Assembly (NCBI GenBank): GCA_020056965.1
Contig: JAGVGT010000009.1
Location: 1 to 34,966 of the forward strand
Origin: Deltaproteobacteria bacterium
Lineage (GTDB): Bacteria; Desulfobacterota; Desulfobulbia; Desulfobulbales; JAGXFP01
Direction: 5' to 3'
Length of the DNA: 34,966 bases
Below the pieces are notes generated by a model. It was not told the DNA's origin. It did no database searches and saw only the letters and a program-made list of their open reading frames with translations. Of the stretch, positions 1,572-27,295 are shown piece after piece (positions within the stretch are counted from its first letter, which is position 1; the number at the start of each line of letters is the position of its first letter). The position numbers and the translations under genes were made by a program.

Positions 1572-1644
1572 CTGTTCCAATCTGGTACAATAAATTACAC
1601 CAAAACCCGCTCGGAATCGGGTAAATCCAATTTATTAAACCGAC

Positions 1645-1674
1645 AGTCCATTTGGGTCGGCGGCTTGGACTTTT
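1645..1674 (+). terminator. Possible radA terminator
   Basis: AGTCCA (1645-1650) can pair with TGGACT (1666-1671), followed by a short T run. The stem is only 6 bp with a long GC-rich loop, so the assignment is weak. It also lies between the GGTACAA block at 1584 and the first sigma-54 promoter. Confidence 0.35.
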
Positions 1675-1729
1675 CTCTAACTATTTAATATTATTCTGTA
1701 AAGATAAATAGTTTACTTGGTTATTTAAG

Positions 1730-1746
1730 TTGGCATGGCCATTGCT
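1730..1746 (+). promoter_or_regulatory. Sigma-54 (-24/-12) promoter of small RNA 1
   Basis: TTGGCATGGCCATTGCT matches the RpoN consensus TTGGCACG-N4-TTGCW. GG is at 1732-1733 and GC at 1744-1745, the obligatory spacing. The predicted start of transcription is about 1757. Confidence 0.85.
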
Positions 1747-1756
1747 TTTAGAAAGA

Positions 1757-1830
1757 GACAAATAGAAAGAAATCCCCCCTTTCTTTCCCTCCTTGAAACC
1801 GGTCAGTCCTCCCCCCTGACCGGTTTTTCT
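1757..1830 (+). ncRNA. Candidate sigma-54-dependent small RNA, copy 1
   Basis: Predicted RNA of about 74 nt. Hairpin 1 is GAAAGAAA (1765-1772) paired with TTTCTTTC (1780-1787) around a TCCCCCC loop. The linker 1788-1795 reads CCTCCTTG, like the anti-Shine-Dalgarno end of 16S rRNA. Hairpin 2 is AAACCGGTCAG (1796-1806) paired with CTGACCGGTTT (1816-1826) around a TCCTCCCCC loop, followed by a U run, so it doubles as the terminator. No start codon with a ribosome site is present. The C-rich loops and linker suggest pairing with ribosome-binding sites of mRNAs, which is inference. I do not recognise the family. Confidence 0.75.
1796..1830 (+). terminator. Intrinsic terminator of small RNA 1
   Basis: An 11-bp perfect stem, 1796-1806 with 1816-1826, has a 9-nt C-rich loop and a T tract at 1824-1830. 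Confidence 0.85.
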
Positions 1831-2072
1831 TTGTTCACTCCCCGGCATTATGACCTGCCAGGCGAAAATCTTACCAGAAAGTGCGACCCGGTCATCGGTG
1901 GCGCCCGGGTTCGGCCGACCAGTCCGCGGGTACAAATTATCCTGCGCAAACCGGGAAATTCAATAATTGGCACCCGATCACCCCCCGCGGACTTTTTGGG
2001 GCGGCGGCTTTGGTCGGCTGTAACTGGCCAATATCAATCAGTAAATCTAGAAAGTTTTTGCGATTCTCCAAG

Positions 2073-2089
2073 TTGGCATGGCCATTGCT
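2073..2089 (+). promoter_or_regulatory. Sigma-54 (-24/-12) promoter of small RNA 2
   Basis: It is identical over the core to the first copy (TTGGCATGGCCATTGCT). GG is at 2075-2076 and GC at 2087-2088. Predicted start is about 2100. Confidence 0.85.
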
Positions 2090-2099
2090 TTTAGAAAGA

Positions 2100-2173
2100 G
2101 ACAACATAGAAAGAAACCCCCCTTTCTTTCCCTCCTTGAAACCGGCCAGTCCTCCCCCCTGGCCGGTTTTTCT
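2100..2173 (+). ncRNA. Candidate sigma-54-dependent small RNA, copy 2
   Basis: It has the same architecture as copy 1. Hairpin 1 is 2109-2116 with 2123-2130 and a CCCCCC loop. The linker is CCTCCTTG (2131-2138). Hairpin 2 is AAACCGGCCAG (2139-2149) with CTGGCCGGTTT (2159-2169) and a TCCTCCCCC loop, followed by T5CT4. Against copy 1, the stem pair T1803-A1819 has become C2146-G2162. This compensatory change supports selection on RNA pairing. Confidence 0.75.
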
Positions 2174-2175
2174 TT
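2139..2175 (+). terminator. Intrinsic terminator of small RNA 2
   Basis: An 11-bp perfect stem, 2139-2149 with 2159-2169, is followed by a T-rich tract to about 2176. Confidence 0.85.
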
Positions 2176-2391
2176 TTGCACTTCCGGGGTTATTGGTCGA
2201 CCAGTCGAAAATCTTCCCGGAAAGTCCGGTCTGGCTGCCCTGACGGCCTTCTTCCTGGTACAAATAATCCTGCGCGAACCGGGATAATTCAAAAATTAGC
2301 ACCCGGTCACGACCGGTGCAGACCTCTGGTCCTGGTTGGTAACGGCTTGATATTGCAGGATTTGTGTAAATATTTAGCGCTTATTCCGGGT

Positions 2392-2408
2392 TTGGCACAT
2401 CATCTGCA
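2392..2408 (+). promoter_or_regulatory. Sigma-54 (-24/-12) promoter of small RNA 3
   Basis: TTGGCACATCATCTGCA: GG is at 2394-2395 and GC at 2406-2407. It differs from the first two promoters in the spacer, yet keeps the -24 and -12 elements exactly. Predicted start is about 2419. Confidence 0.75.
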
Positions 2409-2418
2409 AAGTGATAAA

Positions 2419-2494
2419 GACATCTCAGAAAAAGCCTTTCTTTTTCCTCATCGAAACCGGCCGGGTCCCCCCCCTGGCCGGTTTCACCTTTTTT
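2419..2494 (+). ncRNA. Candidate sigma-54-dependent small RNA, copy 3 (diverged)
   Basis: Hairpin 1 is GAAAAAG (2428-2434) with CTTTTTC (2440-2446). Hairpin 2 starts GAAACCGGCC (2453-2462) and pairs with GGCCGGTTTC (2476-2485). Three further inner pairs (G2463-T2475, G2464-C2474, G2465-C2473) leave a TCCCCCC heptaloop, the same as hairpin 1 of copy 1. A T run at 2489-2494 ends it. The CCTCCTT linker is not kept here (CTCATC instead), so this copy may have different targets. It ends about 60 bp before tRNA-Ser. Confidence 0.65.
2453..2494 (+). terminator. Intrinsic terminator of small RNA 3
   Basis: A 10-13 bp GC-rich stem, 2453-2465 with 2473-2485, is followed by CACC and six T. Confidence 0.75.
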
Positions 2495-2508
2495 GCCCCC
2501 CAGCATTA

Positions 2509-2962: not shown

Positions 2963-4231
2963 CTATTTGTAAACCAGCAACTGCACCACTGCCCGCTCGG
3001 CGGATGAAACGACGTCCGCGAAGGGACGAAGGCTGCTGTCCGGAACCGGCAGCCTGATTGCTACCTCCGGCAACGAGTCGATCAGCGACAACGCATAGGT
3101 AGACTTGACCGCGTAATTGATGTTCTGCGGCAAGCTGCCGGTCGTTTCCAGGGCCACATCCCCCCTGATCTGGGCCTTAACCACCCCCACCACATTGCCG
3201 TTAAAATCGAGGAGCGGGCCACCGGAATTTCCGGGCTGGACCTGCACGCTGATCTGGTAAAAACGCGGGTCGTCCTGCGCCCCGGCCATACTGCTCACCG
3301 ATCCCTTGGTGAACTTGTTTGCCACCCCTTGTAGTTGCGGGTTGGGGAAACCGATGGTGAATACATCCTGGCCCAGAGTGGCGCTGCGGGCCGGAGCAAA
3401 GGCCAGGGCCAGCAGCGGTTGACCGGTGGTCACCTTGAGCAGGGCCAGATCGGAGTCGGTGTCGCGCCGGACCACGGTGGCGTCGAGCAACCGCTCGCCC
3501 AGCTTGGCTTTAATCGCCCGGGCATTTTCAACTACATGGGCACAGGTAAGGATATAGCCTTCGGGGGTGATGATAAAGCCGCTGCCGCTGCTGCTGGAGG
3601 TTGGGCTAATCGCCGAGGCTTGCCCGGCCGATGTCACGGCAGATAAATCCGCCTGGGTTTGTGGGTGGTTGATCTTTTCCTGGATCCGGGCCGACTGGGC
3701 CTGGGCCTCGGCCAACCCTTGCGGGGTGAGCTTAGCGGCCAGGAGGTCACGATTAATAATTCCCTTTTCATCGCCGGTGGCGGCGGCCAGGCTGGACCAG
3801 ACGTAGGCCAGACCGAAATTCTGGGGAACGCCCTGGCCTTCAAAGTACATCACGGCCAGGTTGACCTGGGCCTTGGCATGGCCTTGCTCGGCGGCCTTGG
3901 TGTACCAGGCCAAAGCCTGCTGGTAATCTTGGGGGACGCCGACTCCCTCCTTGTACATCACCCCCAGGTTGGCCTGGGCGTCGGCATTACCCTGCACGGC
4001 CCCCTTGGTATACCACAGTACCGCCTGCTGGTAATCCTGGGGAACCACCTCGCCCTTATCGTACATGAGTCCGAGGTTGACCTGGGCCTTGGCATCCCCC
4101 TGCTCGGCGGCCTTAAGGGTGGCGGTGAAATCGGCCGGTTCGCCTTGCGCCCAAGCGGGCAAAGCCGGCACGCCAGTCAACAGGACGAGGAGCAGCAGGA
4201 GGTTACGGAATCGAAACGGGCTGGGACGCAT
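2963..4231 (-). CDS. Periplasmic Sel1-repeat / trypsin-like serine protease
   Basis: A 422-aa secreted protein. Residues 1-29 are a signal peptide ending in PAWAQG. Three Sel1-like TPR repeats follow (about 35-150; AQVNLGLMYDKG, AQANLGVMYKEG, AQVNLAVMYFEG). A Ser-rich linker leads to a DegP/HtrA-like (S1C) protease domain at about 212-400. The catalytic triad is visible: His232 in TCAHVVENA, Asp261 in DTDSDLALLK and Ser336 in QPGNSGGPLLD. No PDZ domain is present, so it is not DegP itself. Sel1 repeats usually mediate protein contacts and may recruit substrates or partners. The start has a good ribosome site (AAAGGAG, 5 bp before ATG). A possible sigma-54 promoter lies upstream at 4297-4313. 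Confidence 0.88.
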   Translation of the reverse strand: MRPSPFRFRNLLLLLVLLTGVPALPAWAQGEPADFTATLKAAEQGDAKAQVNLGLMYDKGEVVPQDYQQAVLWYTKGAVQGNADAQANLGVMYKEGVGVPQDYQQALAWYTKAAEQGHAKAQVNLAVMYFEGQGVPQNFGLAYVWSSLAAATGDEKGIINRDLLAAKLTPQGLAEAQAQSARIQEKINHPQTQADLSAVTSAGQASAISPTSSSSGSGFIITPEGYILTCAHVVENARAIKAKLGERLLDATVVRRDTDSDLALLKVTTGQPLLALAFAPARSATLGQDVFTIGFPNPQLQGVANKFTKGSVSSMAGAQDDPRFYQISVQVQPGNSGGPLLDFNGNVVGVVKAQIRGDVALETTGSLPQNINYAVKSTYALSLIDSLPEVAIRLPVPDSSLRPFADVVSSAERAVVQLLVYK

Positions 4232-4296
4232 ATTTTCTCCTTTGAACTAATGGGCTGAAAAATCGGGGACCGATCTTAACTGTCGGCATCAGTAAA

Positions 4297-4313
4297 TGCA
4301 CAAACCAGGCCAG
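4297..4313 (-). promoter_or_regulatory. Possible sigma-54 promoter of the Sel1-protease gene
   Basis: On the minus strand it reads CTGGCCTGGTTTGTGCA. GG (4311-4310) and GC (4299-4298) are correctly spaced, but the -12 TTGC has one mismatch. The predicted leader is about 55 nt. A dyad (CCTGTCCC 4330-4337 with GGGACAGG 4374-4381) lies just upstream. Confidence 0.4.
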
Positions 4314-4329
4314 ATAATTTCGCGATTCA

Positions 4330-4381
4330 CCTGTCCCGGACCCGGGCTGGCCGGGTTGCCCCACCCGGTAATGGGGACAGG
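4330..4381. repeat. Dyad with nested hairpins upstream of the Sel1-protease promoter
   Basis: CCTGTCCC (4330-4337) pairs with GGGACAGG (4374-4381) around CCCGG-rich inner stems. It is a possible activator site or bidirectional hairpin. The 632 bases from 4232 to 4863 contain no supportable gene, only this dyad, the 4549 element, the 4648 dyad and the 4736 promoter. Confidence 0.4.
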
Positions 4382-4548
4382 CGTGAATAAAATGAAAAGT
4401 GTTCATTGCCAGAATGGCCACACCCCAGATGGCGTGGCAGATCAAGCCGATATTCCGGCGAAGGGAGGCCCAATCATACAGTTTGGAACTCCGCGATTGA
4501 TTCGGAAGAGCGCCGTTTCCAGGACGGCCACCGGGCCAGGTCGCCACG

Positions 4549-4577
4549 CCCGCAATATCCTGAGGTTCCACCAAATA
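4549..4577 (+). repeat. Dispersed element with core GGTTCCACCAAAT, copy 1
   Basis: The 29 bases starting CCCGCAATAT and ending CCACCAAATA match 29825-29853 at 27 of 29 positions; the core GGTTCCACCAAAT recurs at 27576-27588. All three copies lie upstream of a sigma-54-type promoter on the same strand, here about 160 bp before it. It may be an activator (enhancer) site. Confidence 0.6.
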
Positions 4578-4647
4578 CTGAGGCCGATCCGGGCAATCCG
4601 GCCGTCCCGACCTTTGGGTGTCGCCCGCCCCGGTCTTTTGCTAAATA

Positions 4648-11509: not shown

Positions 11510-13921
11510 ATGAAACCTACTGCCGTTCTCTATTTAACCATGGCCCTTTGCATTGCCGGCTGTGCCACCAAACCGCTGCCACCGGTGGTGATCAATATTC
11601 CGACTCGGACCATTGATTACCAGAAGGAGGTCAAACCGCTGCTCGACAAACGCTGCACGGTCTGCCACTCCTGCTACAACTCGCCCTGTCAGCTGAAAAT
11701 GGACTCCTTCGAGGGTACCGACCGCGGTGCCAGCAAACAGGCGGTCTACAATTCCTCGCGACTGACCGCCATGGATCCGACCCGGCTCTTTACCGATGCC
11801 CAAACAACCGAGGAGTGGCGTAAGAAGGATTTCTTCAGCGTTACCGAAAGTACCGTGACCAACGGCCTGTACCGCAAGGGCATAAGTCTCGTACGAGCAG
11901 ACAAGCTGCTCAACTCGGCTTTAAACGATTCGATCATGATTCAATTGCTGAATCACAAGATGAAGAACCCCAAGAGTACCGGGGAGTACAGTCCGGAAAC
12001 CGACGATCTGACCTGCTCGGAAAACCAGAGCGAGGTGGCGGGGTACCTGAAAAAGCACCCCAATCGCGGCATGCCCTACGGCTTTCCGCCGCTCAAGCAG
12101 GAAGAGTTCGAGATTATTGCCGGCTGGCTGGCCCAGGGCGCCAAAGGCCCCGATGCCGACCAGCAGGCGACATTGATCAGCCCGAAAGCCCCTGACGCCC
12201 TGGCCATCCAGAAGTGGGAAGCCTTTTTGAATCAGGACGATGCCAAGCACGGGATGACGGCCCGCTATCTCTACGAGCATCTGTTCCTGGCCCACCTGAA
12301 ATTCGCCACCCCGACCAACGAGTACTATGAACTGGTTCGCTCCAAGACCGCTCCCGGCCAGCCCATCGAGCTGATTCCGACCTTGCGGCCCTACGACGAT
12401 CCCGGGGTGGCCCGGGTCCACTATCGCTTTCGCAAGATCTACTCCACCATCGTCCATAAAACCCACATGGTCTTTGCCCTTGACGAGGCCCAACTGCAGC
12501 GCTTCGAGGAACTTTTCATCGAGCCGGAGTGGCTGCAGCCGCCGCACCTGGTCGGCTATGATCAGAAATTGAGCGCCAACCCCTTTGTGGCCTTCGAGCA
12601 GATCCCGCCCAGCGCCCGCTATCAGTTTCTGCTGGATAACTCGCTCTACACGATCAAGACCTTTATCCAGGGTCCGGTCTGTAAAGGCCAGATTGCCCTC
12701 AACGTGATTGATGATCACTTCTGGGTCATGTTCATGGACCCCGAGCATGACTTGAGTGTGAGATATCCCGGTTTTCTGAAGGTGAACAGCGACCGGCTGC
12801 GGATGCCCATCGAGCAGGGCAGCAACCAGCAAATCGTTTCGACCTTGACCGATGAATATCGAAAAAAATCCATTGATTATTACCGGGCCCGCCAGGATTA
12901 TTACGCCTCGCACAACTACGCCGGACTTAACTATGATTCGATCTGGAAGGGCAATAATGGCGCCGATGCCCCGGTCCTCACGGTCTACCGCCATTTTGAC
13001 AGCGCCTCCGTCCACAAGGGGCTGTTGGGAAATCTGCCGAAAACCCTCTGGGTCATCGATTATCCCCTGCTCGAACGCATCTATTACGCCCTGGTGGCCG
13101 GTTTCGATGTTTACGGCACGACCGGTCATCAGCTGGCGCTCCGCATTTACATGGATGCGCTGCGGGTCGAAGGCGAGAGTTCCTTCCTCGACTTTCTGCC
13201 CCCGGAAAAGCGGCCGGAGACCATGCAGGCCTGGAATATCGGCACCTCTCTTGAGAGGATTAATTACTACCCGTCCAGCCTGCCGGTGCAAATCCCTTTC
13301 ACCACCGGCGAACCGAAACGCGAATTCATGGAACATCTGGTCAAGCAGCACCTGTTGCCGGCCACCGCGATCAGCTTTGATCCCATTAATTATCGACCGG
13401 GCGAACTCGGTTATCCGCGGGTGCCGAAAAAATACACCACCAACGACGACTATCTGCGGACGCTCGGGACCTTTTTGCAACCCGGCACTCCCTTCTTCTC
13501 CCTGATCAATGACCACAATGCCAATCTCGCCTACCTGCGAATCCGCCTGAAGAACGGCAAGGATCTGGCCGGTTCCATTGTCATTAACCGCTGGCATGAC
13601 AATGTCGCCTTCATCCTTGGCGAAGATGACCGGCTCAATCCGCTGAAAGACAACGCCGACATTATCCCTGGTCTGATTGGCTCCTACCCGAATTACTTTA
13701 TCGATGTCATGGAAGAAGATCTGCCGGATTTCTTTGATCTCCTGGCCAGTTTCGACCGGAAAAACCCGCAGGATATGGCGCGGCTCGCCAAGTACGCCAT
13801 CAACCGGGCCGACGATCGATTATGGGAGGCCTATGATTGGTTTCAGCAGAGATTTTATGCGGACGAGCCGATCGAAGGCGGCCTTTTTGACCTGAATCGC
13901 TACTACTACAACACTCAGTAG
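11510..13921 (+). CDS. cti: Fatty acid cis/trans isomerase
   Basis: An 803-aa periplasmic enzyme that turns cis-unsaturated acyl chains of membrane phospholipids into trans, rigidifying the membrane under solvent or heat stress. A lipoprotein-like signal (LCIAGC, Cys18) opens the chain. A cytochrome-c type heme site follows at Cys49-x-x-Cys52-His53 within CTVCHSCYNSPCQL, characteristic of Cti. The motif KKHPNRGMPYGFPPL and the rest of the chain agree with the family, and the length is as expected. GGGAGAG lies before the ATG. I see no sigma-54 site upstream, and it stands between the kinase operon and the oppositely oriented BON/CsbD cluster. It fits the membrane-stress theme of the window. 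Confidence 0.93.
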   Translation: MKPTAVLYLTMALCIAGCATKPLPPVVINIPTRTIDYQKEVKPLLDKRCTVCHSCYNSPCQLKMDSFEGTDRGASKQAVYNSSRLTAMDPTRLFTDAQTTEEWRKKDFFSVTESTVTNGLYRKGISLVRADKLLNSALNDSIMIQLLNHKMKNPKSTGEYSPETDDLTCSENQSEVAGYLKKHPNRGMPYGFPPLKQEEFEIIAGWLAQGAKGPDADQQATLISPKAPDALAIQKWEAFLNQDDAKHGMTARYLYEHLFLAHLKFATPTNEYYELVRSKTAPGQPIELIPTLRPYDDPGVARVHYRFRKIYSTIVHKTHMVFALDEAQLQRFEELFIEPEWLQPPHLVGYDQKLSANPFVAFEQIPPSARYQFLLDNSLYTIKTFIQGPVCKGQIALNVIDDHFWVMFMDPEHDLSVRYPGFLKVNSDRLRMPIEQGSNQQIVSTLTDEYRKKSIDYYRARQDYYASHNYAGLNYDSIWKGNNGADAPVLTVYRHFDSASVHKGLLGNLPKTLWVIDYPLLERIYYALVAGFDVYGTTGHQLALRIYMDALRVEGESSFLDFLPPEKRPETMQAWNIGTSLERINYYPSSLPVQIPFTTGEPKREFMEHLVKQHLLPATAISFDPINYRPGELGYPRVPKKYTTNDDYLRTLGTFLQPGTPFFSLINDHNANLAYLRIRLKNGKDLAGSIVINRWHDNVAFILGEDDRLNPLKDNADIIPGLIGSYPNYFIDVMEEDLPDFFDLLASFDRKNPQDMARLAKYAINRADDRLWEAYDWFQQRFYADEPIEGGLFDLNRYYYNTQ
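11891..11923. repeat. 33-bp repeat, copy inside cti
   Basis: This 33-base segment starting GTACGAGCAG matches 16099-16131 at 31 positions. It contains GAGCAG...CTGCTC, a small hairpin. Inside cti it is coding. Confidence 0.6.
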
Positions 13922-16098: not shown

Positions 16099-16131
16099 GT
16101 ACGAGCAGGCAAGCTGCTCAACTCAGCTTTA
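16099..16131. repeat. 33-bp repeat, copy at the end of the barrel gene
   Basis: It matches 11891-11923 inside cti at 31 of 33 positions. On the minus strand it begins at the stop codon of the barrel gene and folds as GAGCAG-CTTGC-CTGCTC. A further shared stretch (ATAAGTCTCG) lies on the same side of both copies. Confidence 0.6.
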
Positions 16132-16740
16132 GAACCTGAAACCGAGGTTGGCGGTGGTGATAAACCCGTCCAGATTGATGTCCTGGCCACCGAATGAGGG
16201 TTTGGCCCAAAGGTATTTCGCCTCAAGGCCCGCGAACATTTCATTACTGAAATTAAAGTTGACGCCGCCGCCGGCGTGCAATCCGTAGGTAATCTCCGAG
16301 GAACCGCTGAAGTTGCCGGTATTGCCGCTTACGTCCAGATCAGTAAAGTAGGCGCCGATGCCAAACAGGCCGTAAGGCTCGAACGCCCCGATCGGGACCA
16401 GAAACTTGCCGGTCGCGGTTACCGGTATGACTTTCAGCTTGGTTTCACCGGGCTGGGCCTCCGCTGAGCCCTCGCTCTGGAAGTAGCCGGCGCCCAGCTC
16501 CAAGGCCAGCATGGGCAGGAAGTAATGGCCAGCGGCGAGCTCGCCGGAGAATCCCGTCTTGCTGTCTATGCTGGTGGTGCTGCCGCCGTTAAAATCATTA
16601 AGGTCGTTTGACTCACTGGGCGAATAGACCCCAGCCTTGAGAGTCAGATAGTTGGCCGGCTTCTCCGCCGCCAATGCCGGGGTGATAACTCCAGCCAAAC
16701 TGGCGGCGAGAACCAAGGACATCACGCTGTTTGTTTTCAA
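16129..16740 (-). CDS. Outer-membrane beta-barrel protein
   Basis: A 203-aa protein of the small eight-strand barrel type (OmpW/OmpA-like fold). I chose the TTG at 16740 because AAGGAG lies 5-7 bp upstream and it gives a perfect signal peptide, MKTNSVMSLVLAASLAGVIT ending PALA-AE. The mature part alternates in the barrel manner: YLTLKAGVYSPS, GFSGELAAGHYF, LALELGAGYF, FEPYGLFGIGAYF, ITYGLHAGGGVNFNF. It closes with LGFRF, whose final Phe is the outer-membrane assembly signal. ATG 16722 is an alternative start. Ligand or role is unknown. It has the best sigma-54 promoter in the window and a leader beginning with a long hairpin. Confidence 0.88.
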   Translation of the reverse strand: MKTNSVMSLVLAASLAGVITPALAAEKPANYLTLKAGVYSPSESNDLNDFNGGSTTSIDSKTGFSGELAAGHYFLPMLALELGAGYFQSEGSAEAQPGETKLKVIPVTATGKFLVPIGAFEPYGLFGIGAYFTDLDVSGNTGNFSGSSEITYGLHAGGGVNFNFSNEMFAGLEAKYLWAKPSFGGQDINLDGFITTANLGFRF

Positions 16741-16831
16741 AATTTCTCCTTGAGGTAGTAGCAAAATTAGGTTTGTCGATTTTTCGACGGTTGGCGCTTT
16801 TCCTGGACATCCCCTGTGGAAAAAGCCGCCT

Positions 16832-16874
16832 CTTAACTCAGCCGCAAGCACTGCAGTGCTCGGGTGCGGTTAAG
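16832..16874 (-). other. 5'-terminal leader hairpin of the barrel mRNA
   Basis: CTTAAC (16832-16837) pairs with GTTAAG (16869-16874), inner CCGCA with TGCGG, and the centre is the palindrome AGCACTGCAGTGCT. The predicted sigma-54 start (about 16873) falls on the edge of this structure, so the mRNA would begin with it. It may stabilise the message, as 5' stems do for ompA (inference). Confidence 0.6.
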
Positions 16875-17146: not shown

Positions 17147-18697
17147 TTATTGCCGGGGAATCTCTAGTTTGCGCATCCGGGCCCGCAGCGTACTGGGGTT
17201 GAGACCAAGGAGTACCGCCGCGCCGTTTTTCCCTTCGATTCGGCCCGCGGTTTTCCGGAGCACCATGAGGATGTGGTCATGCTCCAAGTCGGCCAGGGTC
17301 TTGTCCTCGGAATCTTCCGGATCCTCTTTCTTCAGCCCGGCCGCGAACCGGTCCAAGACCTCCAGTTCGGCCCCCCGACTGATAATCACCGCCCGCTCCA
17401 TGACGCTTTCCAGCTCCCGCACGTTGCCGGGCCAGTGGTATCCCCGCAGGAGCTCCAAGGTTTCTGGCGACACGCTCTCGATCTTCTTGCCCATTTTCTG
17501 GTTGAATTTGGCGACAAAGTGATTGACCAGCAGCGGGATGTCTTCCTTGCGCTGCCGCAGGGGCGGGACCGTGATCGGGAACACGTTGAGCCGGTAAAAG
17601 AGGTCTTCCCGGAACTTGCCGGTGCGGGCCTCTTCCTCAAGATTCCGATTACTGGCGGCGATGATTCGCACATCGGTCTTAATGGTGCGGGGGCTGCCCA
17701 GCCGTTCAAACTCGCCGTCCTGAATGACCCGGAGCAGCTTGGATTGCAGCTCCAGCGGCATCTCGCCGATTTCGTCCAGGAAGATGGTGCCGCCGTCGGC
17801 CAGTTCGAAACGGCCGATTTGTCGGGCATTGGAGCCGGTGAAGGCCCCCTTCTCGCGCCCGAAGAGTTCACTCTCGATCAGATTGGCCGGCAGGGACGCG
17901 CAGTTAACTGTGATCAGCGACCGCTCCTTGCGCGCGCTGCTGCTGTGGATGGCGCGGGCGATCACGCCCTTGCCGGTGCCGGTCTCGCCCGTGAGCAAGA
18001 CCGTCGCATTCATCGGCGCGACCTGCTCAACCCGCAGGAATACCTGGGCGAGGGCCTTGCTTTGGCCAATGATCTCACCGAAGTTGTACTCACGGTCCAC
18101 TTCCTGTTGGAGGTAGACATTCTCGGCCTGGAGCCGGTCCTTAAGCTGTTTTATTTCCGTATAGGAACTCTGGAGCGACTCCTCCGCCCGCTTGCGTTCA
18201 CCGACTTCCTGGGTGAGCTGCGCATTGGCCTTGCGCAGGTCCCCGGTCCGCTCCTGCACTGTCTGCTCCAGCACCTTGTTGTAATTGGCGAGTTGTTTGT
18301 AGAGCAGCCGCACTTCCAGCAGGTTATGGATTCGCGTGGTGACTTCGAGCAGATCGAACGGCTTGCCGATGAAGTCTTTGGCGCCGGCCTGCAAAGCCCG
18401 CAGCTTGTGGCTGGGCTGGGCGGTAATCACCAGGACCGGCAGATAGCCGTCCGGATCGATTTCTTTGAGCCCTTCCATGACCTCGAATCCGTCCAGGTCG
18501 GGCATCTGCAGGTCGAGGAGGATCAGATCGTAGTGGTTTTTACGATGCAGCGCGCAGACCTCCTGGGGACTCATCGTGGAGGCAACGGCGGTGTAACCGG
18601 CTTCGCCCAACAATTGCTCAAGCAGGAGGACATTGGCCTCCTGATCATCAACAATCAGGATATCGGCCTTGAGAATGTCGGACTCGGTGATCATCAT
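17147..18697 (-). CDS. NtrC-family sigma-54-dependent response regulator
   Basis: A 516-aa activator of RpoN holoenzyme. The receiver domain is at about 12-128, with acceptor Asp62 (LILLDLQMPD) and Lys112 (IGKPFD). A coiled coil (about 133-205) follows. The AAA+ domain (about 208-440) has Walker A GETGTGKG (237-244), the sigma-54-contacting GAFTGS loop (284-289) and Walker B GGTIFLDEIGE (302-312). The Fis-type helix-turn-helix is at the end (NGAAVLLGLNPSTLRARMRK). The start overlaps the end of the kinase gene by 4 bp (ATGA), so it is the output partner of that kinase. Its C-terminal two-thirds are almost the same as the regulator at 22661-24388. Confidence 0.95.
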   Translation of the reverse strand: MMITESDILKADILIVDDQEANVLLLEQLLGEAGYTAVASTMSPQEVCALHRKNHYDLILLDLQMPDLDGFEVMEGLKEIDPDGYLPVLVITAQPSHKLRALQAGAKDFIGKPFDLLEVTTRIHNLLEVRLLYKQLANYNKVLEQTVQERTGDLRKANAQLTQEVGERKRAEESLQSSYTEIKQLKDRLQAENVYLQQEVDREYNFGEIIGQSKALAQVFLRVEQVAPMNATVLLTGETGTGKGVIARAIHSSSARKERSLITVNCASLPANLIESELFGREKGAFTGSNARQIGRFELADGGTIFLDEIGEMPLELQSKLLRVIQDGEFERLGSPRTIKTDVRIIAASNRNLEEEARTGKFREDLFYRLNVFPITVPPLRQRKEDIPLLVNHFVAKFNQKMGKKIESVSPETLELLRGYHWPGNVRELESVMERAVIISRGAELEVLDRFAAGLKKEDPEDSEDKTLADLEHDHILMVLRKTAGRIEGKNGAAVLLGLNPSTLRARMRKLEIPRQ

Positions 18698-24655: not shown

Positions 24656-27295
24656 TTAACGCTTAGCCACTAGCAGACTCTTTAACTTGGCGTTCTCCTC
24701 GCGCAACTCCGCCTCCAACTTTTTGGCCGCGGTAATCTCGGCAAAGGTGATCACCACCCCGGCAATCACCTCTTCCATGGTCCGATAGGGCATGATCCGC
24801 ACCTTAAACCAGCGGCCATCGGTGGCGCTGATCTCTTTTTCCGAAAAGACCAGGGTCCGCAGAACCTCGCGCGCCTCATCGACCATGCCGGGATAGAGCA
24901 GGTCGCTGGTAAGGTCGGAAAGGGGCCGCCCGACGTCGCCCGGGATCAGCTTGAAGAGCTGGTTCGCGCCGCTGGTGTAACGCCGGACATGGAGCTGGTT
25001 ATCCAGGAAAACGGTGACTATTTCCGTGCTGTTGAGCAGGTTGCGCATGTCATTGTTGGTCCGCGACAGCTCGTCCATTCTGGACTGTTGCTCGGCGTTC
25101 AGGGTCTGCAGCTCTTCGTTCATGGACTGCATCTCTTCCCTGGAGGTAGTCAGCTCCTCATTGGTTGACTGCAGCTCCTCGTTGGTTGACTGCAGCTCCT
25201 CATTGGTTGATTTAAGCTCTTCCTGGGAGGATTGCATCTCCTCGCGGGTGCTGGATAGTGCTTCTCTGACCTGCTGGAGTTCCTGCCCCAGTTCGAGAGA
25301 TCTGCTGTTGCCGTCCGCCGCTATTTTCTTGCGGCGGCCCGGGGCCTTCTTTTCCGGGGGCAGCGCCACATCGGTAAAAACGATCATCACCATCCCCCGT
25401 AAAGCCTCCGGGGTGTCGATCACCTGAATGGCGATATCGACGGCCTGGTTGGTGTCGCCTTCACCAATCCTCAGCCCCCTGACCATGAGCGGCTCCTTGG
25501 TCCGAACCGCCTTCTGAAAGGCGCTGCCCAGTTCAAAACGGAGGCCTTCCCGGGCCATGGCAAAAATGTTCCAGTTGGCCTTGCCGGCCGCCGGCTCCAG
25601 ATATTTGCCGGTCCGCCCGCTGATATAAAGGATATCGCCCCGGTCGTTGACCAGCACGGCCGGCGGGGAAAAACGCTGCAAAAGCAGTTGGTCGGCCAGG
25701 GACTGGAGGTTGGCGACAGGTTTTGCCATGGTTAGTTCCTTGGGGGATCCCGGCCGGCCGGGGATAAACGAGGGTGGAAAGGCCAGTGGTTCGGCCAGGA
25801 CCGATTCGCGCCGCCGGAAGAGTCTCGACTTGATGTGCACCGAAGTGAAGAAATCGGCGAAGGCGGTGGCGGTCTCGGCGCTCCCCAGAAACATGATCCC
25901 GCCGGGGTTTAGGCTGTAGTGGAAGAGCGGCAGGAGCTTCTTCTGCGACTCCGGCGTCAGATAGATCAGGAGGTTGCGACAGATCAGGATATCCAGCTTG
26001 GTAAAAGGCGGGTCCATGATCAGGTTCTGGGTGGCGAAGGTCACCATCTCCCGGATCTCCTTGGTGACCCGGTAGCCGCTTTCTTCCTGGACAAAAAACC
26101 GGTGCAACTGTTCGGCGGAGACGTCGGCGGAGATGTTAACCGGATAGACGCCCTGCCTGGCCTTGTCGATGGCATCCCGGTCCAGATCGGTGGCAAAGAT
26201 CTGCAGGGTAAAACGAGCCGTGGGTTTGATCTGCTCCAGGGCCTCCTTGAAGGCAATGGCCAGTGAATAAGCCTCTTCCCCGGTCGAGCAGCCGACCGAC
26301 CAGGCCCGCAGCACCCCGCCGGTCGGGCGGTCCGCCAGGAGCGCGGGAATAGCCTCTTCCTGGAGTTGTTCCCAGGCGGCTGGATCGCGGAAAAAGCTGG
26401 TTACGCCGATCAGCAGTTCCTTGAAGAGTAGCTCAACCTCCTGGGGATTCTCCTGCAGGAAACGGACGTAAGCGGCGATCCGGTCGATCTGATGAATGGA
26501 CATGCGTCGTTCGATCCGGCGGTAGACCGTGTTCTTCTTATACAGCGAGAAATCCTGACCGGTCTTGGAGCGCAGCAGAATCAGGACTTTCTCGATGGCG
26601 CTTTGATCTTTCTCTTCGAGGGGGCGCTCGCTCTTGGCGATGACATGGGCGTGGCGGAGATAGTCGATAATCTTGCCGGGCAGTTCCTCGACCGGGGCCA
26701 CCAGATCGGCCAGGCCGGCCGCGATGGCGCTTCTGGGCATGCTGTCGAATTTGGCCGTGGCGGGCTCCTGAACCAGCACCACTCCCGCCTTTTCCTTGAT
26801 GGCCCTTAGGCCCATGGTGCCGTCCGAACCCATGCCGGAAAGGATGACACCAATGCTACCTTCCTGCCGGTCCTCGGCCAGGGAGCGAAGAAAATAATCG
26901 ATGGGAAGACGCAGGCCGCGCGGGGCCGTCGGCTCGAACAGATGCAACACCCCGTGCAGAATAGACATGTCCTTATTGGGCGGGATCACATAGACGCAGT
27001 CCGGTTTGACCCGCATCCGGTCCCGCACCTGGAAAACCGCCATCCCGGTGGTCCGTTGCAGCAGTTCGGCCATGATCCCCTTGTGGGTAGGGTCCAGGTG
27101 CTGGACGATGACAAAGGCCATGCCGCTGCCATCCGGAACCTGCCGGAGGAACTGCTCCAGCGCCTCCAGTCCGCCAGCCGAGGCGCCGATGCCGACAATG
27201 GGGAACGGTTTGGCCCCTGGCTGCGTCTGGGGCTCATGCGGGGAAGAGGAGTTTTTGACCTTGCCGCTGCCGACTGTTTTTGGTTGTTTGTTCAT
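24656..27295 (-). CDS. CheB-CheR-PAS fusion protein
   Basis: An 879-aa signalling protein. A CheB methylesterase domain is at about 30-215 with Ser39 (GIGASAGGLEAL), His66 (VQHLDPT) and Asp158 (SGMGSDGT). A CheR methyltransferase follows at about 230-490, with the SAM loop SVGCSTGEEAYS (333-344) and the DPPFTKLDILICRNLLIY motif. A PAS-like domain is at about 540-640. A strongly heptad coiled coil (EELQSTNEELQSTNEEL, about 665-750) and a final PAS (about 755-865) end it. No kinase domain is attached. Opposing methyl-adding and methyl-removing activities in one chain imply control of its own or a partner's methylation state. It has no chemoreceptor neighbour. The ribosome site is weak. Confidence 0.93.
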   Translation of the reverse strand: MNKQPKTVGSGKVKNSSSPHEPQTQPGAKPFPIVGIGASAGGLEALEQFLRQVPDGSGMAFVIVQHLDPTHKGIMAELLQRTTGMAVFQVRDRMRVKPDCVYVIPPNKDMSILHGVLHLFEPTAPRGLRLPIDYFLRSLAEDRQEGSIGVILSGMGSDGTMGLRAIKEKAGVVLVQEPATAKFDSMPRSAIAAGLADLVAPVEELPGKIIDYLRHAHVIAKSERPLEEKDQSAIEKVLILLRSKTGQDFSLYKKNTVYRRIERRMSIHQIDRIAAYVRFLQENPQEVELLFKELLIGVTSFFRDPAAWEQLQEEAIPALLADRPTGGVLRAWSVGCSTGEEAYSLAIAFKEALEQIKPTARFTLQIFATDLDRDAIDKARQGVYPVNISADVSAEQLHRFFVQEESGYRVTKEIREMVTFATQNLIMDPPFTKLDILICRNLLIYLTPESQKKLLPLFHYSLNPGGIMFLGSAETATAFADFFTSVHIKSRLFRRRESVLAEPLAFPPSFIPGRPGSPKELTMAKPVANLQSLADQLLLQRFSPPAVLVNDRGDILYISGRTGKYLEPAAGKANWNIFAMAREGLRFELGSAFQKAVRTKEPLMVRGLRIGEGDTNQAVDIAIQVIDTPEALRGMVMIVFTDVALPPEKKAPGRRKKIAADGNSRSLELGQELQQVREALSSTREEMQSSQEELKSTNEELQSTNEELQSTNEELTTSREEMQSMNEELQTLNAEQQSRMDELSRTNNDMRNLLNSTEIVTVFLDNQLHVRRYTSGANQLFKLIPGDVGRPLSDLTSDLLYPGMVDEAREVLRTLVFSEKEISATDGRWFKVRIMPYRTMEEVIAGVVITFAEITAAKKLEAELREENAKLKSLLVAKR

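Follow-up and report, generated by a model that had tools for sequence, protein, structure and literature searches.

A tandem array of three predicted sigma-54-dependent small RNAs between radA and tRNA-Ser, and the RNA family to which it belongs

Little is known of the regulatory RNAs of sulfate-reducing bacteria and their relatives. In Vibrio, the Qrr RNAs are encoded by several sigma-54-dependent genes per genome, answer to one activator and act by base-pairing; RybB and MicA are porin-repressing RNAs of the envelope stress response under sigma-E; and CrcZ and GlmY act by protein binding. An enhancer-binding protein requires a site 5' of the sigma-54 promoter that it activates. Closer to the locus considered here, the accessible portions of two papers on Desulfovibrio vulgaris describe sigma-54-dependent ncRNAs under enhancer-binding proteins, for example Dv_sRNA2 under DVU0679 and further ncRNAs under DVU0653, DVU1419 and DVU2359 (PMC4641369, PMC3333781), with binding sites placed 100 bp or more upstream (PMC4641369). 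The sRNA sX13 of Xanthomonas, according to the accessible part of its description, uses C-rich elements to repress mRNAs that carry G-rich motifs near their start (PMC3771888).

The present locus lies in a window of 34,966 bases, by which we mean the whole stretch of DNA that was analysed. An initial annotation had placed three diverged units, each a small RNA behind a sigma-54 promoter, between radA and tRNA-Ser, and the arrangement is borne out by RadA domains before the units and two tRNA-Ser genes behind them. Its features are as follows (palindrome centres are relative to the predicted start):

171-1571: RadA-like protein gene, identified by its domains
1584-1601: palindrome of unit 1 (GGTACAATAAATTACACC), 19.7 bits, centre -165; 19.0 bits without training on the window
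1624-1641: second palindrome of unit 1, 13.6 bits, centre -125; 13.8 bits without training on the window
1730-1746 (core 1731-1745), plus strand: sigma-54 promoter of unit 1, from a scan with the core pattern and also conserved at this locus in relatives
1757-1834, plus strand: predicted small RNA 1 (folding, models R1 and R2), with a hairpin at 1765-1787, a linker and a terminator at 1795-1827 with a C-rich loop
1957-1974: palindrome of unit 2, 12.4 bits, centre -135; 9.4 bits without training on the window
2073-2089 (core 2074-2088), plus strand: sigma-54 promoter of unit 2, from a scan with the core pattern
2100-2177, plus strand: predicted small RNA 2 (folding, models R1 and R2), with a hairpin at 2109-2130, a linker and a terminator at 2138-2170
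2286-2303: palindrome of unit 3, 14.3 bits, centre -125; 13.5 bits without training on the window
2392-2408 (core 2393-2407), plus strand: sigma-54 promoter of unit 3, from a scan with the core pattern
2419-2491, plus strand: predicted small RNA 3 (folding, terminator scan and R1; weak with R2, E 0.197), with a hairpin at 2428-2446, a linker and a terminator at 2453-2485
2557-2642 and 2654-2746: pair of tRNA-Ser genes, 3' of the three units

Unit 1 resembles unit 2 most closely (78% identity over 211 nt), and unit 3 has diverged further; within a 66-nt block common to all three, identity to the reference copy is 91% and 76%, a divergence large enough that the array should not be an echo of the assembly. 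By inspection the RNAs are 73-78 nt long. Each is predicted to form two hairpins, with folding z-scores of -4.7, -5.5 and -5.6, and none of 200 shuffles of each was equally stable. The linker between the hairpins, CUUUCCCUCCUUGAAAC in units 1 and 2 and AUCUCCUUUCUCCUGAA in several relatives, differs in unit 3. As had been claimed, the RNAs appear to encode no protein: ATG and GTG are absent from all three, on which ground a coding sequence was rejected, and TTG occurs in the linker of units 1 and 2 and once more in the U-tract of unit 1. Also rejected was a leader of tRNA-Ser, because the units have terminators of their own and the 40 fetched loci discussed below, none of them chosen beside tRNA-Ser, are flanked by other genes. 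Elsewhere in the window, on the plus strand at 11510-13921, lies a gene for a fatty acid cis/trans isomerase (CTI), an envelope-stress enzyme.

The pattern TGGCAY-N6-TGC occurs four times in the window against 0.77 expected, a count reached by 0 of 100 shuffles. Besides the three units, it is found on the minus strand at 16899-16885, where it forms a sigma-54-like promoter of an outer-membrane beta-barrel gene (16129-16851, minus strand) that is preceded by a sigma-54 response regulator (17147-18697, minus strand) carrying the motif GAFTGS. The promoters of the array had been called exact; GG, GC and their spacing are indeed intact, and the word is slightly too strong for a set in which the -24 element of units 1 and 2 reads TGGCAT and unit 3 has CTGC at -12. 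The positions of the promoter cores place the predicted starts at 1757, 2100 and 2419, and an rpoN gene is present in the same genome.

How far does this kind of unit extend? When 38 genomes were searched at the DNA level, 8 had matches, the window's own among them. In G002, G003 and G004 a single unit stands 5' of the same tRNA-Ser pair, behind what by eye appears to be the end of radA; in G001 such a unit, with the tRNA-Ser pair behind it, was added by model R1 (7 sequences); and at L052, which appears to be the contig of G002, an RNA at 4536-4619 lies between radA (3001-4353) and tRNA-Ser (from 4676), this being the only match at E ≤ 1 when R1 was run on 11 radA loci. With single copies at this place in relatives, the array of three appears to have arisen by expansion in the genome of the window. 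The covariance-model search that the initial annotation had proposed was then carried across 257 genomes of the order, which we take to be Desulfobulbales (the closest named relatives of the RadA protein include Desulfurivibrio). At E ≤ 0.01, R1 matched 33 of these genomes and R2 117. Model R2 consists of 17 sequences of the RNA alone, each starting at the predicted +1, and represents 17 of the 28 rows of alignment A3, from which the window's family and hard-to-align rows were left aside; A3 itself omits L047, although this locus bears a promoter. Most R2-matching genomes outside the window's family are listed with one match each; an additive effect of the copies, as with Qrr, which the initial annotation had thought possible, is conjectural. 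Among 395 genomes drawn from the phylum, R2 matched six at E ≤ 0.001, five of them within the order (own genome included). The sole match outside it, in G302 (L163, minus strand near 1500-1577), shows a sigma-54-like core promoter and a similar UAUCUCCUUUCC linker and is likely a family member outside the order; this likeness suggests that the family may extend beyond the reach of R2.

The promoter is conserved together with the RNA. At 26 of 30 R1 loci, five of which belong to the window's family and four of these to the seeds of R1, a promoter scoring at least 11 was found within 30 nt 5' of the RNA, the exceptions being L026, L040, L042 and L046. For R2, which contains no promoter, we scored the 45 nt 5' of the model start at 40 fetched loci, picked to span families and mostly well scoring: 38 reached at least 11.5 and 31 at least 13.5, against 4.0% and 0.3%, respectively, of random 45-nt stretches from the same loci. 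Ten of the 40 are seeds of R2, themselves selected among promoter-bearing matches; among the 30 others the counts are 28 and 24. A conserved -24/-12 promoter thus stands directly 5' of the RNA. The two loci with no promoter at 11.5 or above, L187 (G228) and L203 (G221), hold promoterless look-alike RNAs with a C-rich linker and loop in a common gene order, and are perhaps a sister family.

Farther upstream lies a palindrome, GGTACAAAtaTTTGTACC, mostly near -120, which the initial annotation had missed and which was spotted when promoters were compared side by side. Its matrix was then refined on 46 members (L187 and L203, with promoter scores below 11.5, were left aside) and has the consensus gGTACAAAtaTTTGTACc. 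At least 10 bits were reached in 40 of the 46 members against 1.0% of dinucleotide shuffles, and in 26 of these 40 the centre of the best site lies at -110 to -125 relative to the predicted start. Of the six members below 10 bits (L177, L189, L178, L194, L195 and L176), five come from f13 or alike, so that in f13 this activator-type site is weak or lacking. Trained on 11 members, a matrix recovered the palindrome in 29 of 35 held-out members, against 0.7% of shuffles, its training sites having been chosen using the joint matrix; the same holds for the 38 training sites of a window-excluded matrix, whose top four sites in the window are those at 1584, 1624, 2286 and 1957, the next scoring 7.2. 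In 28 genomes the exact core occurs at 21 places and its reversed pattern at 2. Members follow 15 of the 21, a porin gene follows 3 (G029, G231, G233), and 3 lie elsewhere. Control by an activator, as initially proposed, is accordingly supported by the conserved promoter, the activator-type palindrome upstream and the rpoN gene. The neighbours of family loci, which vary between families, do not indicate the activator gene. The response regulator at 17147-18697 was set aside as a candidate, there being no palindrome of at least 12 bits nearby and no tie to the RNAs.

Within the RNA, members most clearly share the linker, rich in C and U, and the terminator, whose loop is C-rich in most of them and not in those of f13; f1 linkers are unlike those of other families. 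In 58 matches aligned to R2, an alignment that leans towards the model to which it was fitted, the terminator stem is paired in 89.9% of cells. Its covariation score is 0.540, compared with 0.236 (sd 0.013) after shuffling and at most 0.182 when slid, and all 15 pairs show changes on both sides, a measure on which 41 of 500 shuffles did equally well. Hairpin 1 pairs in 54% of cells of the same alignment, and RNAalifold, run on 7 and on 17 members, predicted the terminator only; the first hairpin is therefore variable or partly misaligned. The picture of a two-hairpin RNA of about 75 nt holds for the three units; across members, hairpin 1 is its weak part.

No known Rfam family accounts for these RNAs. 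At curated thresholds Rfam finds only tRNAs in the window, and under relaxed thresholds the closest model to units 1 and 2 is ar14 (RF02344), which gives 32.2 and 29.4 bits where 58.8 would be required; across 11 relatives' loci RNAs are matched only below threshold (for example suhB in L038, 24.3 of 41 bits). A Qrr match is absent from 1572-2560 both at gathering and at E ≤ 10, and neither CrcZ nor 6C RNA, both of which have models in Rfam, is named among the matches of the window or of the 11 loci. Membership in a known Rfam family was rejected on these grounds, in keeping with the initial impression that the RNA was not a recognised one, and the open-access papers listed in our literature search include no description of it.

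The family is also multi-copy, as had been stated: several copies per genome occur in the window's family. The window's genome has a fourth copy outside the array, beside a DUF362-like gene, with a TGGCACAGCCATTGC promoter, a terminator hairpin with a C-rich loop and a palindrome centred at about -123 from the predicted start. Neither R2 nor R1 matches it at E ≤ 1, and its assignment rests on promoter, palindrome, terminator and neighbour; a palindrome search with 2 mismatches in five family genomes finds one non-window site in this genome, and the reversed pattern also gives one, so that the palindrome count by itself proves nothing. In G003 there are five places, C37, C43, C57 and C64 by models (C43 by model match alone) and C32 by the palindrome. 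Aconitase or DUF362 genes, grouped by clustering with a Pfam-checked protein, flank 13 of the 40 loci, the commonest setting seen; the position beside DUF362 is probably the older one, that between radA and tRNA-Ser having been occupied later.

Which mRNAs might be targeted? With 2 mismatches allowed, the window's own genome has 16 further places that match the complement of the linker, whereas the reversed pattern yields 6; three of the 16 lie 12-23 nt before a possible start (of at least 80 aa), one of these three being inside a long open frame. At L273 (C14 near 25323-25337, minus strand), the start region of a 91-aa Lrp/AsnC-domain gene contains 13 nt that complement the linker of units 1 and 2 without a mismatch, which makes this gene a putative target, to be taken only as a lead.

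Relatives offer a stronger candidate, an outer-membrane porin that is weakly DESULF_POR1-like (51 bits against a cut-off of 250) and matches no Pfam family. The palindrome is found upstream in 9 of 13 such genes, with 0 of 200 shuffles as good, and is missing in G006, G018, G013 and G045; three of the nine are the discovery cases, leaving 6 of 10. By eye the porin promoters look sigma-70-like, and the best sigma-54 score in three regions scored is 10. The porin had been found via the palindrome and a linker match at its start was seen by eye in that genus, after which ten genomes were tested (G231, G240, G006, G207, G018, G221, G013, G045, G198 and G217, in this order throughout). With a helix-limited score, adopted because free duplex folding (an earlier, looser score, with porin ranks of 1-31 of 79) proved too permissive, the porin start ranks 1, 1, 3, 2, 9, 2, 2, 3, 20 and 12 of 80, that is, among itself and 79 control starts pooled over genomes, and 1, 1, 3, 2, 4, 2, 2, 2, 10 and 8 of 35 when set against 34 controls with strong Shine-Dalgarno sequences. 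When the flanks of the sRNA were shuffled and its core kept, pairing was as good in 0, 0, 0, 1, 2, 0, 1, 1, 6 and 4 of 200 cases. Pairing with the porin start is thus statistically supported in 8 of 10 genomes (rank 1-4 of 35, 0-2 of 200 shuffles as good), and counts as support and not as proof, since homology among the porins and the pooling of the controls make the ranks interdependent. The palindrome and good pairing occur together in four of the ten (G231, G240, G207, G221); G198 and G217 have the palindrome and poor pairing, and G006, G018, G013 and G045 good pairing and no palindrome. An outer-membrane porin is a likely target in several relatives. For the window's own family it failed as a target: a porin homologue is absent from the window's genome at E ≤ 0.1, and those of G001, G002 and G004 have upstream palindrome scores of -0.1, 8.0 and 0.8, none reaching 10 bits. 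Upstream of their start, the homologues L264, L265 and L266 of this family have in common a different palindrome (about ACCACAATGTGGT) and a leader that is long and conserved.

We consider it reasonably probable that the locus is a tandem array of trans-acting sRNAs, driven from sigma-54 promoters by an enhancer-binding protein, whose linker blocks ribosome-binding sites. What the computation shows is the family with its promoter, its upstream palindrome and its terminator; transcription, the activator and its signal, repression and the targets in the window's own genome are inferred. An activator, responding to some presumed signal, would bind palindromes of the GGTACAAAtaTTTGTACC type, mostly near -120, and drive sigma-54 RNA polymerase at the promoter of each unit; each RNA would stop at its own terminator; and the single-stranded linker, together with the 3' arm of hairpin 1, itself weak, would base-pair with ribosome-binding sites and so block translation, the porin's probably being among those blocked in several families. 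Having four copies, three of them in tandem, may raise the dose or, because the linkers of units 1-2 and 3 differ, widen the target set. It is conceivable, if doubtful, that one enhancer-binding protein both activates the sRNA and, through the same palindrome, directly regulates the sigma-70 promoter of the porin while the sRNA closes its ribosome-binding site, making the system an order-wide envelope regulator whose RNA would have gained copies and turned to other targets in the window's family. This would be a sigma-54 feed-forward loop where enterobacteria use sigma-E with RybB and MicA.

Might the linker, which resembles an anti-Shine-Dalgarno sequence, simply damp many mRNAs unspecifically, the porin signal being a by-product of a strong ribosome-binding site? 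Some of the 79 control starts do equal or beat the porin in 8 of 10 genomes, and the linkers of f1 differ from those of other families. Yet an intact core with shuffled flanks rarely pairs as well in the eight supported genomes, and the palindrome is common to RNA and porin in part of the genomes, so that we regard unspecific action as unlikely. We hold it to be quite improbable that the RNAs, sigma-54-dependent all the same, bind a protein as a sponge or decoy and pair with no mRNA: titration would fit with the several copies and the recurring C-rich loops, and no target is proven in the window's genome, but such a role would not explain a conserved linker complementary to Shine-Dalgarno sequences or porin-start pairing that beats nearly all controls in 8 of 10 genomes, and the C-rich loop is missing in f13.

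That the units are not RNA genes at all, and are intergenic repeats or radA terminators with a chance likeness to promoters, is scarcely credible. They are repeats, and their second hairpins are good terminators; however, promoter, palindrome and RNA occur together, far above control rates, at many unrelated loci (with aconitase, DUF362, FeoB, chemotaxis receptor, DsbA-like and G6PD neighbours), and the conserved promoter and palindrome led us to reject mere terminators or repeats. The trans-acting, linker-pairing RNA thus remains our preferred reading. With it the order gains a conserved, activator-driven sRNA with a defined promoter and a defined operator usable as bait for the activator, a concrete candidate target in the DESULF_POR1-like porin, and, as material for studying sRNA multiplicity, a natural gradation between single copies and a tandem triplet.

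We file these RNAs as a new family of a known kind, the sigma-54-dependent small RNAs. RF02344 (ar14, alphaproteobacterial RNAs with CUCCUCCC loops) shares C-rich, anti-Shine-Dalgarno-like single strands before a terminator with a C-rich loop, whereas its model has a further hairpin and C-rich stretches in loops only. C-rich single-stranded elements also link the family to sX13, for which the present analysis offers computed complementarity only; sX13 has three stems with C-rich loops, the accessible part of its description does not mention RpoN (PMC3771888), and here the linker, and not only the loop, carries the motif. With RybB and MicA, compared in sequence through Rfam only, the family has in common that the RNA would target the start region of an mRNA for an outer-membrane protein, sigma-54 and an activator replacing sigma-E. 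Unlike Qrr, it has no Rfam Qrr match and no quorum-sensing context was seen; like Qrr, it would combine several sigma-54-dependent sRNA genes per genome, one activator and base-pairing. Nearest by phylum are the ncRNAs of D. vulgaris, compared by description: in the accessible portions of their accounts the enhancer-binding proteins are others and neither a porin nor a linker is mentioned; common to both, within one phylum, are small RNAs whose sigma-54 promoters answer to enhancer-binding proteins.
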